Assembly (NCBI RefSeq): GCF_023721715.1
Contig: NZ_JAMDLG010000001.1
Coordinates: 1,367,889 to 1,431,888 of the forward strand
DNA: 64,000 nt
Direction of reading: 5' to 3'
DNA from: Parasegetibacter sp. NRK P23
GTDB taxonomy: Bacteria > Bacteroidota > Bacteroidia > Chitinophagales > Chitinophagaceae
Below, piece by piece: positions 56,845-60,995 of the stretch (its first letter is position 1; each line of letters begins with the position of its first letter). The position numbers and the translations under genes were made by a program. Below the pieces are notes generated by a model. That model was not told where the DNA came from. It saw nothing but the letters and a program-made list of their open reading frames with translations, and ran no database searches.

Positions 56845-57618
56845 ATGCAGTTCCCTTTTTCCATCCACCTTTTTAACAAGACCATCCCCTGGCATGTGGT
56901 GCTGGAACCGCTCGCTTTTTTTATCGCGTTCAGGTATTATCTCTACCTCAAAAAGAAAAAAGGCGATGCCATTGAAAGTGAACACCGGCTCTGGATACTG
57001 GTGGGCGCCACTTTCGGCGCAGTGTTGGGCAGCAGGATCATTGGCGGACTGGAAAATGTTCCCGCCATGCTGGCCGCTCCCAACAAACTCCTGTATTTCT
57101 ACCAGAACAAAACCGTGCTGGGCGGATTTCTAGGTGGATTGCTGGGAACGGAAGCCATCAAAAAAGCGATTGGTGAAAAAAGAAGCAGCGGCGATCTTTT
57201 CGTATTCCCGATCCTGCTCGGGTTGATCATCGGCAGGATCGGGTGTTTTTCCATGGGCATCCACGAGGAAACCTACGGAATCCCTACCCGTTTTTTTACC
57301 GGTATGTACCTGGGTGACGGCCTCCTCCGGCACCCGGTTACCTTGTACGAGATTGTGTTCCTCATCTGTTTATGGGTACTGTTGGCAAGATGGTCCAAAC
57401 ATTATGTACTTGCAGAAGGACTTCTTTTCAAAATCTTCCTCATCAGCTACTGTATTTTCCGTTTCCTGCTGGACTTCATCAAACCACATTACAGTTGGGC
57501 GGGATTGTCGACCATTCAATGGGCATCACTCGCGGGAATAATTTATTATACCACGCTGTTCTTCACAGAAAAACACCTATTTTCCTTCTTCCGAAAACAC
57601 CGGGTCCCTTATGCCTGA
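56845..57618 (+). CDS. Lgt-like integral membrane protein lacking the catalytic His
   Basis: The 257-residue protein has about seven transmembrane helices and the fold motifs of prolipoprotein diacylglyceryl transferase: GSRIIGGLENV, GRIGCFSMGIHEETYG, RHPVTLYE and IFRFLLDFIKP. The essential HGG of true Lgt is replaced by LGG (Leu96 in VLGGFLGGLLG at 91-101), and the Asn after GRxG is Cys134; the Arg (131) is kept. It is therefore unlikely to be the housekeeping Lgt and may transfer or bind a phosphatidylglycerol-type lipid in another reaction. It overlaps the radical SAM gene by 8 bp. The ATG at 56845 is used rather than a TTG at 56806. Confidence 0.75.
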   Translation: MQFPFSIHLFNKTIPWHVVLEPLAFFIAFRYYLYLKKKKGDAIESEHRLWILVGATFGAVLGSRIIGGLENVPAMLAAPNKLLYFYQNKTVLGGFLGGLLGTEAIKKAIGEKRSSGDLFVFPILLGLIIGRIGCFSMGIHEETYGIPTRFFTGMYLGDGLLRHPVTLYEIVFLICLWVLLARWSKHYVLAEGLLFKIFLISYCIFRFLLDFIKPHYSWAGLSTIQWASLAGIIYYTTLFFTEKHLFSFFRKHRVPYA

Positions 57619-58999
57619 AAAAGATTATACCTACTACGATTTCACGATATCGCTTTGTACGAAGTGCCTGAAGAGAGTGGACGCCAAGATCATCTTCGAA
57701 AACGAACAGGTGTTTATGGTGAAAAGATGTCCTGAACATGGCATGGAAAAAGTATTGATCGCCACGGATATCCAGTATTATAAAAACACCCGCAACTACA
57801 ACAAACCGAGCGAAGCGCCGCTGAAAACGAATACCAACACCCATTATGGATGCCCCTACGATTGCGGGTTGTGCCAGGACCACGAACAGCACAGTTGCCT
57901 TACCGTAATAGAGATCACCGACCGTTGCAACCTCACCTGCCCCACCTGCTACGCCATGAGCAGTCCACATTACGGAAGGCACCGTACTGTGGAAGAAGTG
58001 GAAGCCATGCTGGACACCATTGTGGCCAATGAAGGCACCCCGGATGTGGTGCAACTGAGTGGCGGTGAACCCACTTTGCATCCAGACTTCTTCCGCATTC
58101 TCGACATCGCCAAAACAAAACCCATCCGGCACCTGATGGTGAATACCAACGGCATCCGCATCGCCAACGATGAAGGCTTCGCAGAGCGACTAGCCACCTA
58201 CATGCCCGATTTTGAACTGTACCTGCAATTTGATTCTTTCAAATCCGAAGCGCTTATCCAGCTCCGTGGCAAAGACCTTACGGATACCCGGAAGAAAGCA
58301 CTGGAAAAACTCAACGCCCTCAACCTCTCCACCACACTGGTGGTGACCCTGCAACAAGGGCTGAACGACGATGAAGTGGGCGAGATCATTGATTTCGCGT
58401 TAAAACAGAAATGTGTGCGTGGTGTCACGTTTCAACCCGTGCAGGTAGCGGGAAGAAATGAAGATTTTGACCCGGCCAAACACCGTATTACCCTCACCGA
58501 TGTGCGGAGAAAAATACTGGAACAAAGCCCCGTTTTTCAACCCAACGATATTGTGCCCGTTCCCTGTAACCCCGATGCCCTGGCAATGGGTTATGCCTTA
58601 AAACTCGGTGGTGAAGTATTCCCCCTCACCCGTTACATTGATCCGAGTATCCTGCTCAACAGCGCCAGGAACACGATCGTGTATGAACAGGACGAAAACC
58701 TGCATGAGCAGGTGATCCGCATTTTCAGCACCGGTGTAAGCGTGGATGCCGTAACAGAAGATATGCAGTCGCTCCTGTGTTGCCTTCCGCAGATACAGGC
58801 GCCGGGGTTGAGTTACGACAACCTGTTTCGTATCATTATCATGCGCTTCATCGACGCCTACGATTTCGATGTGCGCGCCATCAAAAAAAGCTGCGTGCAC
58901 ATCGTTCATAAAGACGGGCGCATTATCCCCTTTGAAACGATGAACCTGTTTTACAGGGATGAAAAGGAAGTATATTTGAAAAAACTGATTAATAGCTGA
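57611..58999 (+). CDS. Radical SAM enzyme of the tetraether synthase-like (MJ0619-type) layout
   Basis: The 462-residue protein has a zinc-ribbon-like N-terminus (Cys16, Cys19, Cys40 in CTKC...RCPEHG). An auxiliary cluster site follows (Cys81, Cys85, Cys88, Cys96 in CPYDCGLC...SC), then the radical SAM motif CNLTCPTCYA (Cys106, Cys110, Cys113), GGEPTLH and a C-terminal domain with Cys residues. This order is that of the MJ0619/Tes family, some members of which join lipid chains through radical C-C bonds. No such lipid function is proven for Bacteroidota members. It overlaps the Lgt-like gene by 8 bp, which favours a lipid substrate. Confidence 0.8.
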   Translation: MPEKDYTYYDFTISLCTKCLKRVDAKIIFENEQVFMVKRCPEHGMEKVLIATDIQYYKNTRNYNKPSEAPLKTNTNTHYGCPYDCGLCQDHEQHSCLTVIEITDRCNLTCPTCYAMSSPHYGRHRTVEEVEAMLDTIVANEGTPDVVQLSGGEPTLHPDFFRILDIAKTKPIRHLMVNTNGIRIANDEGFAERLATYMPDFELYLQFDSFKSEALIQLRGKDLTDTRKKALEKLNALNLSTTLVVTLQQGLNDDEVGEIIDFALKQKCVRGVTFQPVQVAGRNEDFDPAKHRITLTDVRRKILEQSPVFQPNDIVPVPCNPDALAMGYALKLGGEVFPLTRYIDPSILLNSARNTIVYEQDENLHEQVIRIFSTGVSVDAVTEDMQSLLCCLPQIQAPGLSYDNLFRIIIMRFIDAYDFDVRAIKKSCVHIVHKDGRIIPFETMNLFYRDEKEVYLKKLINS

Positions 59000-59001
59000 C
59001 C

Positions 59002-59193
59002 ATGAATGAAATAGCTATTCTTCTGCTGATATTGTTTCTTCCCCCGATAGTCACCATTATTAGCGGGTTGGTGCTTATTTTTTCGCCTCAGAAGCGGAAA
59101 AGCGTCAAAAGGATATTTCTCATCGCGGCCATTCTGCTGGGTATTGAACTCCTGATCGGCTTCGCCGTTTGCGGCAACATGAACTTCCATTGA
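59002..59193 (+). CDS. Small two-helix membrane protein of the radical SAM operon
   Basis: The 63-residue product has two hydrophobic helices (ILLLILFLPPIVTIISGLVLIF and IFLIAAILLGIELLIGFAVCG) joined by a basic loop SPQKRKSVKR. It starts 2 bp after the radical SAM stop, so it belongs to the same operon. No family was recognised; a membrane anchor or partner of the two upstream proteins is possible. Confidence 0.65.
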   Translation: MNEIAILLLILFLPPIVTIISGLVLIFSPQKRKSVKRIFLIAAILLGIELLIGFAVCGNMNFH

Positions 59194-59274: not shown

Positions 59275-60123
59275 ATGCCACAAGACCAATCGCATCACTA
59301 TAACCGCATCGCTGAAGCCATCCATTATTTGGGGGAAAATTTCCGTTCCCAACCCGACCTGGAGGAGCTGGCTTCTAAAATGCACCTCAGTTCCTTCCAT
59401 TTTCAGCGGATGTTCTCCGAATGGGCCGGCGTGAGTCCGAAAAAATTCCTGCAATACCTTAGTCTGGAACACGCTAAAGCTATGCTCCGGGAACGTGCCA
59501 CGCTGATGGATACTGCTTTCGAAACGGGCCTTTCCGGCACGGGACGTTTACACGACCTGTTCATCCACATCGAAGGCATGACGCCCGGGGAATACAAGAA
59601 CGGGGGTGCAGCGCTTTCCATGCAGTATTCCTTCGCTGAAACACAGTTCGGTCCGGTGATCATTGCCTCCACGCACAGGGGCGTTTGCTACATGGCTTTT
59701 TATGTTGAAGAAGCGGCCGCGTTGGAAGAACTGAAACGGAAATTCCCCGGAGCCGCACTCTCTAAAGCAACAGACGTGCACCAGCAGGAAGCATTGAAAG
59801 TTTTTTCCGGCGCTCCCGCACAAGTGAAACTCCACCTGAAAGGAACACCCTTTCAACTGAAAGTATGGGAAGCGCTCCTGAAAATCCCACCGGGGCAATT
59901 ATCCAGCTACAATTTGCTGGCGCAGCAGATCGCCCACCACAAAGCATCCCGCGCGGTGGGATCCGCGGTCGGTGATAACCCGGTTGCTTATATTATCCCC
60001 TGCCACCGGGTGATCCAGTCTTCTGGTATTATCGGGCAATACCATTGGGGCAGCGTGCGCAAAGCCAGTATGATTGGCTGGGAGGCCGCACAGCATGCGC
60101 GGGAAGAAGAGGAAACGCCATAA
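59275..60123 (+). CDS. AraC-type regulator fused to O6-methylguanine-DNA methyltransferase
   Basis: The 282-residue protein has an AraC helix-turn-helix pair (about 8-105, LEELASKMHLSSFHFQRMFSEWAGVSPKKFLQYL) followed by an Ogt domain (115-275) with the acceptor motif PCHRV, Cys243, in IPCHRVIQSSG. It lacks the N-terminal zinc/phosphotriester domain of Escherichia coli Ada. It repairs alkylated guanine or thymine by taking the alkyl group on Cys243 and may also regulate transcription. The dioxygenase AlkB gene follows 272 bp downstream, separated by a region containing a short copy of the dispersed repeat. Confidence 0.9.
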   Translation: MPQDQSHHYNRIAEAIHYLGENFRSQPDLEELASKMHLSSFHFQRMFSEWAGVSPKKFLQYLSLEHAKAMLRERATLMDTAFETGLSGTGRLHDLFIHIEGMTPGEYKNGGAALSMQYSFAETQFGPVIIASTHRGVCYMAFYVEEAAALEELKRKFPGAALSKATDVHQQEALKVFSGAPAQVKLHLKGTPFQLKVWEALLKIPPGQLSSYNLLAQQIAHHKASRAVGSAVGDNPVAYIIPCHRVIQSSGIIGQYHWGSVRKASMIGWEAAQHAREEEETP

Positions 60124-60194
60124 GTTGGTTCGCAAATAAATTAAAGAAGAAAAACACGGAACACGACAAGTGCAAAACACCAAAGGCACCCGGG

Positions 60195-60216
60195 GAAAAC
60201 AACGTCGGTGGCACCG
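60195..60216 (-). repeat. Partial copy C of the dispersed repeat
   Basis: These 22 bases are the exact reverse complement of 42379-42400, which spans the CGGTGCCACCG end of copy A and the following ACGTTGTTTTC. Beyond this, similarity is weak and patchy. It lies between the AraC-Ogt and AlkB genes, in a 272-bp gap without other genes. Confidence 0.6.
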
Positions 60217-60395
60217 CTGGTTCCTCCGCACCGAACCGCTGCAATACAACAGGCTCGCAGCTTACAACCGATTTTCCACCTAAAAACAGGAAATTCTGCC
60301 CAAAAAGATAAACACCTACACATGCAATGTATATTAACTGATATTTTAATGCGAAGACATAGCAACTATAAAGTCAGCACAAATACCGGACACCA

Positions 60396-60995
60396 ATGAA
60401 TCTTTTCACCCAACATACCATTCCCAACCTCCTGCCCTACGATGGCGAGACCGTTTACCACGGCATCATCCTAACCCCGGAGCAATGTAATTTCTTCCTC
60501 CGCAAAATGCTCCACGATATTGAATGGCGAAATGATGAGGCGGTCATATTCGGCAAACACATTGTGACCAAACGCAAAGTGGCCTGGTATGGCGATGAAC
60601 GTTTTTCCTATACTTATTCCAACACCACCAAAGAAGCCCTTCCCTGGACGAAGGAGCTCCTGGAGCTGAAACAACGGGTGGAAACCGTTTCGGGCAACAG
60701 GTTCAACTCCTGCCTGCTCAACCTCTACCATTCCGGAGACGAGGGCATGGCCTGGCACAGCGATGATGAAAAAACGCTGGTAGCGGGTTCCAGCATCGCT
60801 TCACTGAGCCTGGGGGCGGAAAGGAAGTTCAGCATGAAGCACCGCCGCACCAACGAACAGGTTTCGCTGATGCTGGCTCCCGGTAGCTTGCTGGAAATGA
60901 AAGGCACCACGCAAACCCACTGGCTGCATTGCGTACCGAAAACGAAGAAGGTGGCGGAGGCCCGGGTGAACCTGACGTTTCGGAGTATGGGATAG
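60396..60995 (+). CDS. alkB: AlkB-type alpha-ketoglutarate-dependent DNA dioxygenase
   Basis: The 199-residue protein shows the jelly-roll motifs of AlkB: YHGIILTPEQC, RKVAWYGD, LLNLYHSGDEGMAWHSDDE with iron ligands His121 and Asp123, ERKFSMKHR, THWLHCVPK with third ligand His178, and the ketoglutarate-binding Arg in RVNLTFR. It removes 1-methyladenine and 3-methylcytosine by oxidation. With the AraC-Ogt fusion upstream it makes an adaptive alkylation-response pair. Length and motifs are like ALKBH2-type bacterial proteins. Confidence 0.92.
   Translation: MNLFTQHTIPNLLPYDGETVYHGIILTPEQCNFFLRKMLHDIEWRNDEAVIFGKHIVTKRKVAWYGDERFSYTYSNTTKEALPWTKELLELKQRVETVSGNRFNSCLLNLYHSGDEGMAWHSDDEKTLVAGSSIASLSLGAERKFSMKHRRTNEQVSLMLAPGSLLEMKGTTQTHWLHCVPKTKKVAEARVNLTFRSMG

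Follow-up and report, generated by a model that had tools for sequence, protein, structure and literature searches.

A conserved bacterial gene trio encoding an Lgt-fold paralogue, a Tes-fold radical SAM enzyme and a small membrane protein, suggesting a membrane or lipid modification not yet described

Many bacterial relatives of the tetraether synthases have, to our knowledge, no known job, and such relatives have been suggested as the makers of soil lipids that serve as climate proxies. What, then, is the gene for one of them doing in Parasegetibacter sp. NRK P23, placed between a paralogue of the lipoprotein enzyme Lgt and the gene for a very small membrane protein? We analysed a stretch of 64,000 nucleotides of this genome (hereafter the window), in which the three genes run from 56845 to 59193. 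A preliminary description made from the letters alone had read them as an operon, and in this it was right: the open reading frames lie as it placed them and belong to a conserved module. The features are as follows.

56845..57618, + strand: LGTL, an Lgt-fold membrane protein paralogue of 257 aa (Pfam LGT, AF2 model, residue counts)
57611..58999, + strand: rSAM, a Tes-fold radical SAM enzyme of 462 aa (profile, fold, tree, ligands), comprising a rubredoxin-type site, an N-terminal auxiliary [4Fe-4S] cluster, the SAM cluster and a C-terminal auxiliary cluster domain
57851..57898, + strand: rSAM N-terminal auxiliary cluster motif, C81-x3-C85-x2-C88-x2-H91-x2-H94-x-C96 (alignment with GDGT-MAS; PMC9433317)
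57926..57949, + strand: rSAM SAM-binding cluster CX3CX2C, C106/C110/C113 (alignment)
59002..59193, + strand: SMP, a two-helix membrane protein of 63 aa (open reading frame, with similar small open reading frames at related loci)

Conservation and linkage of the three genes

LGTL and rSAM overlap by 8 nt (ATGCCTGA), SMP starts 2 nt past the rSAM stop codon, and all three genes are on the + strand. Upstream, on the opposite strand, lie genes for an AHSA1 protein and an ArsR-type regulator; downstream are an AraC-Ada-like methylated-DNA repair protein and an AlkB-like oxygenase (window 59275-60992), which look like a separate alkylation-repair pair. None of these flanking genes is conserved beside the trio in the loci of relatives.

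Among 296 Bacteroidota genomes, an rSAM of the LGTL-linked kind is present in 25, the window's own included, and LGTL is present in every one of the 25, although in two of them (G034 and G272) the genes lie on different contigs. The rSAM of one further genome (G066) was left out of this count because it passes the Tes cut-off and LGTL is missing. LGTL itself occurs in 26 of the 296; the extra copy (L087; G017:C10:163751-164455) is an orphan in a genome related to the window's, with no rSAM of the LGTL-linked kind.

A scan of 84,980 species genomes yielded 80 named loci, distributed over Bacteroidota, Bacillota, Chloroflexota, Cyanobacteriota, Elusimicrobiota, Armatimonadota, Acidobacteriota, Planctomycetota and Pseudomonadota; since they were picked by rSAM similarity, they are not an unbiased census. 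LGTL is found in the fetched stretch at 71 of the 80, the nine others being mostly truncated by a contig end upstream of rSAM, and at 50 of these 71 it overlaps rSAM or ends no more than 100 bp away. The trio is a conserved module and not a chance arrangement, since the pair, with a small protein, turns up in one phylum after another; it spans at least eight phyla, and loci from eight phyla besides Bacteroidota keep LGTL with rSAM. The preliminary description had proposed a lipid-modifying pathway in Bacteroidota; such a pathway is still plausible, but it would be no speciality of that phylum. Distances among LGTLs track distances among rSAMs (Mantel r 0.85, a value reached in none of 2000 permutations), a correlation that fits co-inheritance and that shared species history would also produce.

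We searched for conserved neighbours beyond the three genes around the loci of relatives and found none. Only one subclade (L081, L082, L089 and L090) gains further operon genes, for membrane proteins, among which an ICMT/PEMT-like methyltransferase and a DUF4395 protein were identified in L081, L082 and L089; the DUF4395 protein of this subclade has a Cys-rich end. At three loci of Flavobacteriaceae (L128, L143 and L152) LGTL is split over two frames, through either broken genes or sequencing errors.

A Tes-fold enzyme outside the Tes clade

The preliminary description likened rSAM to the MJ0619/tetraether synthase proteins, and it proves to be a full-length Tes-fold relative. A profile built from 48 rSAM relatives gives a full-length match to GDGT-MAS/Tes (E 4.6e-101), and the AlphaFold2 model of rSAM (mean pLDDT 85.4) aligns with 7tom at Z 45.9 over 411 of 462 residues with 33% identity, the next unrelated entry reaching Z 19.7. 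The cysteine layout first described also stood: the rubredoxin motif CX2CX20CX2H (C16-x2-C19-x20-C40-x2-H43), the N-cluster residues C81/C85/C88/H91, the remaining residues of that motif (H94 and C96) and the SAM-cluster residues C106/C110/C113 are all invariant in the 48 relatives. The ligands published for GDGT-MAS, whose N-terminal auxiliary cluster is held by C73/C77/C80 and a His, map onto C16/C19/C40/H43, C81/C85/C88/H91 and C106/C110/C113 (PMC9433317). With GDGT-MAS (MJ0619, PDB 7TOL/7TOM) rSAM thus shares the whole fold, the rubredoxin-type Cys3His site, the Cys3+His auxiliary cluster, the SAM cluster and a C-terminal cluster domain.

It is towards the C terminus that the two differ. 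In that cluster region C319 and C428 are invariant and C390 and C391 nearly so among the 48 relatives, a cysteine pattern unlike that of GDGT-MAS, and these four residues are candidate ligands of the C-terminal cluster. Met411 takes the place of the labile Met439 of GDGT-MAS and is Met in 33 of the 48, while the position of Tyr459, strictly conserved in archaeal Tes, is Ile in rSAM (Ile 41, Phe 5 and Val 2 among the relatives); GDGT-MAS with Y459F or Y459L still works (PMC9433317). Between P318 and M411, before the last cluster motif, rSAM has some 34 residues fewer than GDGT-MAS, and its model is poor in this stretch (pLDDT < 50 at 370-398), so its lipid pockets may differ from those of GDGT-MAS.

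In a superfamily tree of 65 proteins, the LGTL-linked rSAMs and a few LGTL-free Chloroflexota relatives form one clade (support 99/98), separate from both the Tes clade (100/99) and the clade of the TrsS radical SAM (seleno)proteins (100/99); two members (L083 and L270) have very long branches, which leaves their positions unsure. The group2 proteins of Acidobacteriota, which are bacterial Tes, fall inside the Tes side. The profile scores of rSAM are 292 bits against Tes (NCBIfam NF045702, cut-off 450) and 328 bits against TrsS (NF045646, cut-off 490), both below threshold. An Lgt-like gene usually adjoins rSAM but not Tes, there being no LGTL within 1.5 kb of Tes-side genes at any of 30 loci, nor of TrsS-side genes at any of 18 (15 of which exceed the TrsS cut-off). 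In keeping with the earlier reading, rSAM lies in a clade of its own, outside any family with a known non-lipid substrate.

Could rSAM nonetheless make bulk membrane-spanning lipids, coupling fatty-acid tails as Tes and Mss do, with LGTL as a lipid carrier? The complete Tes fold and metal sites invite this reading, and Bacteroidota and Bacillales commonly contain iso-branched acids. Mss, a bacterial membrane-spanning lipid synthase, has a Tes-like catalytic architecture according to its authors and is proposed to join bacterial lipid tails by condensing iso-C15 lipids (PMC13274423). Set against this are the position of rSAM outside a Tes clade that does take in the Acidobacteriota proteins, and its score of 292 bits where 450 are needed. 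We know, moreover, of no well-studied Flavobacterium or Paenibacillus with diabolic acids as major lipids. We consider this reading quite improbable: a bulk tetraether-like lipid is an unlikely product of the module, both because rSAM stands outside the Tes clade and because such lipids are not known as major ones in well-studied carriers.

TrsS raises the question of whether the substrate is a lipid at all. It is similar to rSAM in length and gives the best profile score (the 328 bits above), but it occupies its own clade and its loci lack an Lgt-like neighbour. At one such locus (L280:2798-12117) the operon of TrsS also encodes a molybdenum hydroxylase, a methyltransferase, a C_GCAxxG_C_C protein and an AMP-binding enzyme, an arrangement absent around the window operon. 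Since a protein about as close by profile sits in a molybdenum-hydroxylase operon, the superfamily is not a lipid-only one. Within the rSAM clade, too, a Chloroflexota subclade (L272-L276) keeps rSAM with no LGTL nearby, and in L273 a class I methyltransferase follows it. It is conceivable, then, that rSAM matures a cofactor or peptide, as TrsS may, with LGTL and SMP as membrane anchor, channel or precursor; the duplication of SMP described below would also suit a precursor peptide. The strict partner of rSAM, however, has the Lgt fold together with PG-binding arginines, and no cofactor or transporter gene is conserved near the module in the loci compared, and we hold this non-lipid role to be rather doubtful. 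The order of rSAM followed by a methyltransferase seen in L273 also occurs on a plasmid of Mycolicibacterium vanbaalenii (L304).

The Lgt-like protein, the second Lgt and the small protein

LGTL scores 75 bits against Pfam LGT (cut-off 24.9) and 45 bits against the NCBIfam lgt equivalog, far under its cut-off of 118.9, and its AF2 model (pLDDT 93.6) shows the Lgt fold, aligning with 5azb at Z 13.9 across 239 residues. Residues were counted in 97 LGTL sequences aligned with an E. coli Lgt sequence that agrees with the PDB fragments compared with it. The subfamily residues of the window's LGTL and the residues it keeps are, with E. coli equivalents in brackets:

Altered: H17 (Y26), E21 (Y30), K89 (M100), L92 (H103), C134 (N146)
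Kept: R131 (R143), H163, Y168, E169 (E202), R206 (R239), D210 (E243)

Arg131 and Cys134 had been named correctly before; the residue at the essential His was rightly given as Leu but misnumbered as 96, the profile alignment placing it at Leu92 (K-T-V-L92-G-G). LGTLs share with Lgt, the phosphatidylglycerol (PG):prolipoprotein diacylglyceryl transferase (PDB 5AZB/5AZC), the fold, an HPxxLYE segment and the equivalents of R143, G154 and E202 (each 97/97), R239 (96/97) and E243 (E or D in 96/97), and R143, R239 and E202 line the PG site of the E. coli enzyme (PMC4728403). The H103 equivalent is replaced by V, M, L or I, the N146 equivalent is Cys in 96 of 97 and the Y26 equivalent His in 88, with Glu in 85 (and Asp in 2) at Y30 and Lys or Arg in 87 at M100. 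E. coli Lgt cannot do without six residues, Y26, H103, R143, N146, G154 and R239 (PMC4728403, PMC13251419); LGTL keeps R143, G154 and R239 and has replaced Y26, H103 and N146. H103 is not absolutely conserved among Lgts, however, and N146 may be Cys in distant ones (PMC13251419).

The genome does contain a second Lgt, as the preliminary description proposed to check, but one without HGG. This protein of 389 aa (G000:C1:2194152-2194877; locus L001:1456-2622, - strand) carries YGG and GRIGC, that is, Tyr for His103 and Cys for Asn146, and at 83 bits it too falls under the 118.9 cut-off of the lgt equivalog; no lgt with HGG separate from LGTL was found in this genome. Nine relatives from the same family or order, all lacking the module, have this long type as their sole PF01790 protein, with GRxGC in 9/9 and YGG in 7/9, and its standing as the only Lgt there makes His103 and Asn146 seem dispensable in this lineage. 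Loss of both residues thus characterises the type of Lgt native to the lineage, and the earlier argument, in which losing the HGG His and the GRxGN Asn meant altered catalysis, fell with it. We accordingly rejected the two losses as a mark unique to LGTL. Nor does the required-residue test decide whether LGTL is active, since H103 and N146 are missing from the second Lgt as well. The distinguishing marks of LGTL are, to judge from the alignment, His17, Glu21 and Lys89 together with Cys134. One protein of the LGTL tree (L054) was labelled LGTL by score only and carries the YGG/GRIGC of the housekeeping-type Lgt; the second label change in that tree may be due to this protein.

That LGTL, with its Lgt fold, might itself be the housekeeping Lgt is refuted, and we give the idea practically no credence. 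The genome has its 389-aa Lgt, of the very type that serves alone in the nine module-free relatives, and LGTL co-occurs with at least one further PF01790 gene in all 26 LGTL genomes; the preliminary description was correct in taking LGTL for something other than the housekeeping enzyme, given a second lgt.

SMP is predicted to hold its Cys57 (codon 59170-59172; motif F-A-V-C-G) at the exoplasmic end of helix 2. Its positive loop QKRKSVKR is probably cytoplasmic, which would put the Cys at the outer face, where Lgt acts. A small open reading frame by the operon with a Cys-ending helix after a positively charged segment was found at 88 of 105 loci; these SMPs are predictions from a simple open-reading-frame rule, whose background elsewhere in the same loci is about 0.1 per 2.3 kb of strand. 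A few further loci, L079, L083 and L143 among them, have an SMP-like frame by eye. SMP may follow rSAM, lie between LGTL and rSAM or follow LGTL, and is present in two or more copies at 25 loci. The context of the Cys is biased: 82% of 114 SMPs have Gly, Ala or Ser at -2, compared with 24% of control frames. Position -1 is mostly Ile, Val, Thr or Ala, unlike a lipobox, and a median of only 7 residues follows the Cys, so that we expect no LspA-type processing. We therefore set a lipobox reading of SMP aside, keeping it as a rival only.

A specific form of our main explanation, set out below, would have LGTL transfer diacylglyceryl, or a related group, to the SMP Cys, with rSAM then modifying or cross-linking the tails, the outcome being a lipid-anchored small protein. 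Its appeal is that the Cys, like that of lipoprotein signal peptides, sits at the exoplasmic end of a helix after a positive cytoplasmic segment, that SMPs are often duplicated and fast-diverging, as substrates are, that one subclade has an ICMT/PEMT-family methyltransferase in the operon, and that LGTL keeps the PG-binding residues. It must contend with the unfavourable -1 position and the short tail past the Cys (median 7 residues), and with the Leu, Val or Met that LGTL has at H103, where A, N, Q, R or Y kills E. coli Lgt (PMC4728403). MSMEG_5408, a second Lgt of Mycobacterium smegmatis, resembles LGTL in two changes, Y26H and N146C, and is presumed to have low activity (PMC13251419). We regard this route as unlikely. 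Taken further, it would make the module a lipid-protein conjugate system, in which rSAM joins or remodels the tails of lipidated SMP into an unusual and possibly membrane-spanning lipid anchor; we would call that a long shot, and if true it would mean a small protein with an unusual lipid anchor in many common aerobic bacteria.

Proposed chemistry and significance

We favour the broader reading in which the module carries out radical C-H chemistry and its substrate is a membrane lipid or a small protein linked to a lipid. Three features together speak for it, namely the PG-site residues kept in LGTL, the Tes fold of rSAM and the SMP Cys at the outer membrane edge, and we hold this reading with belief and doubt in roughly equal measure. 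From the observed conservation and linkage of the genes, their folds and the patterns of metal-ligand and active-site residues, we infer a lipid substrate, a division of labour, an acceptor in SMP and a product along the following lines. The soluble Tes-fold rSAM would generate a 5'-deoxyadenosyl radical and abstract hydrogen from a carbon that is not activated, most probably one of a lipid tail, with its C-terminal cluster presumably at the substrate end as in GDGT-MAS. LGTL, which keeps the PG-binding residues (R143, R239, E202 and E243 equivalents) and has a rebuilt acceptor or catalytic side (His17, Glu21, Lys89, Leu92 and Cys134), may bind or present the lipid or transfer a diacylglyceryl group. 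SMP would be partner or acceptor, its conserved Cys lying at the outer membrane edge where Lgt works, and the product is probably of low abundance and not a bulk lipid. The least certain step is the lipid itself, given the operon context of TrsS at L280 and the LGTL-free Chloroflexota subclade.

We found no paper describing the LGTL/rSAM pair among the open-access papers searched, and no NCBIfam model matches LGTL or rSAM above its own cut-off. The folds are known; their combination, the LGTL signature and SMP appear to be undescribed in those papers and in NCBIfam, and the module hints at a membrane or lipid modification that is new to both. A large clade of bacterial Tes relatives is hereby split off, and sequence alone is no ground for counting its members as tetraether or brGDGT synthases. 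LGTL and SMP, as two tightly linked membrane partners, offer a concrete genetic handle on this rSAM clade. Should a lipid product be found, it would represent a new kind of radical chemistry on lipids, found in ordinary bacteria that can be cultured, such as Chitinophaga, Flavobacterium and Paenibacillus, and would show what a repurposed Lgt does. Among Bacillota, one genome (G614:C39:241820-279795; L278 and L279) carries three paralogues of the rSAM superfamily, one of them beside an LGTL.
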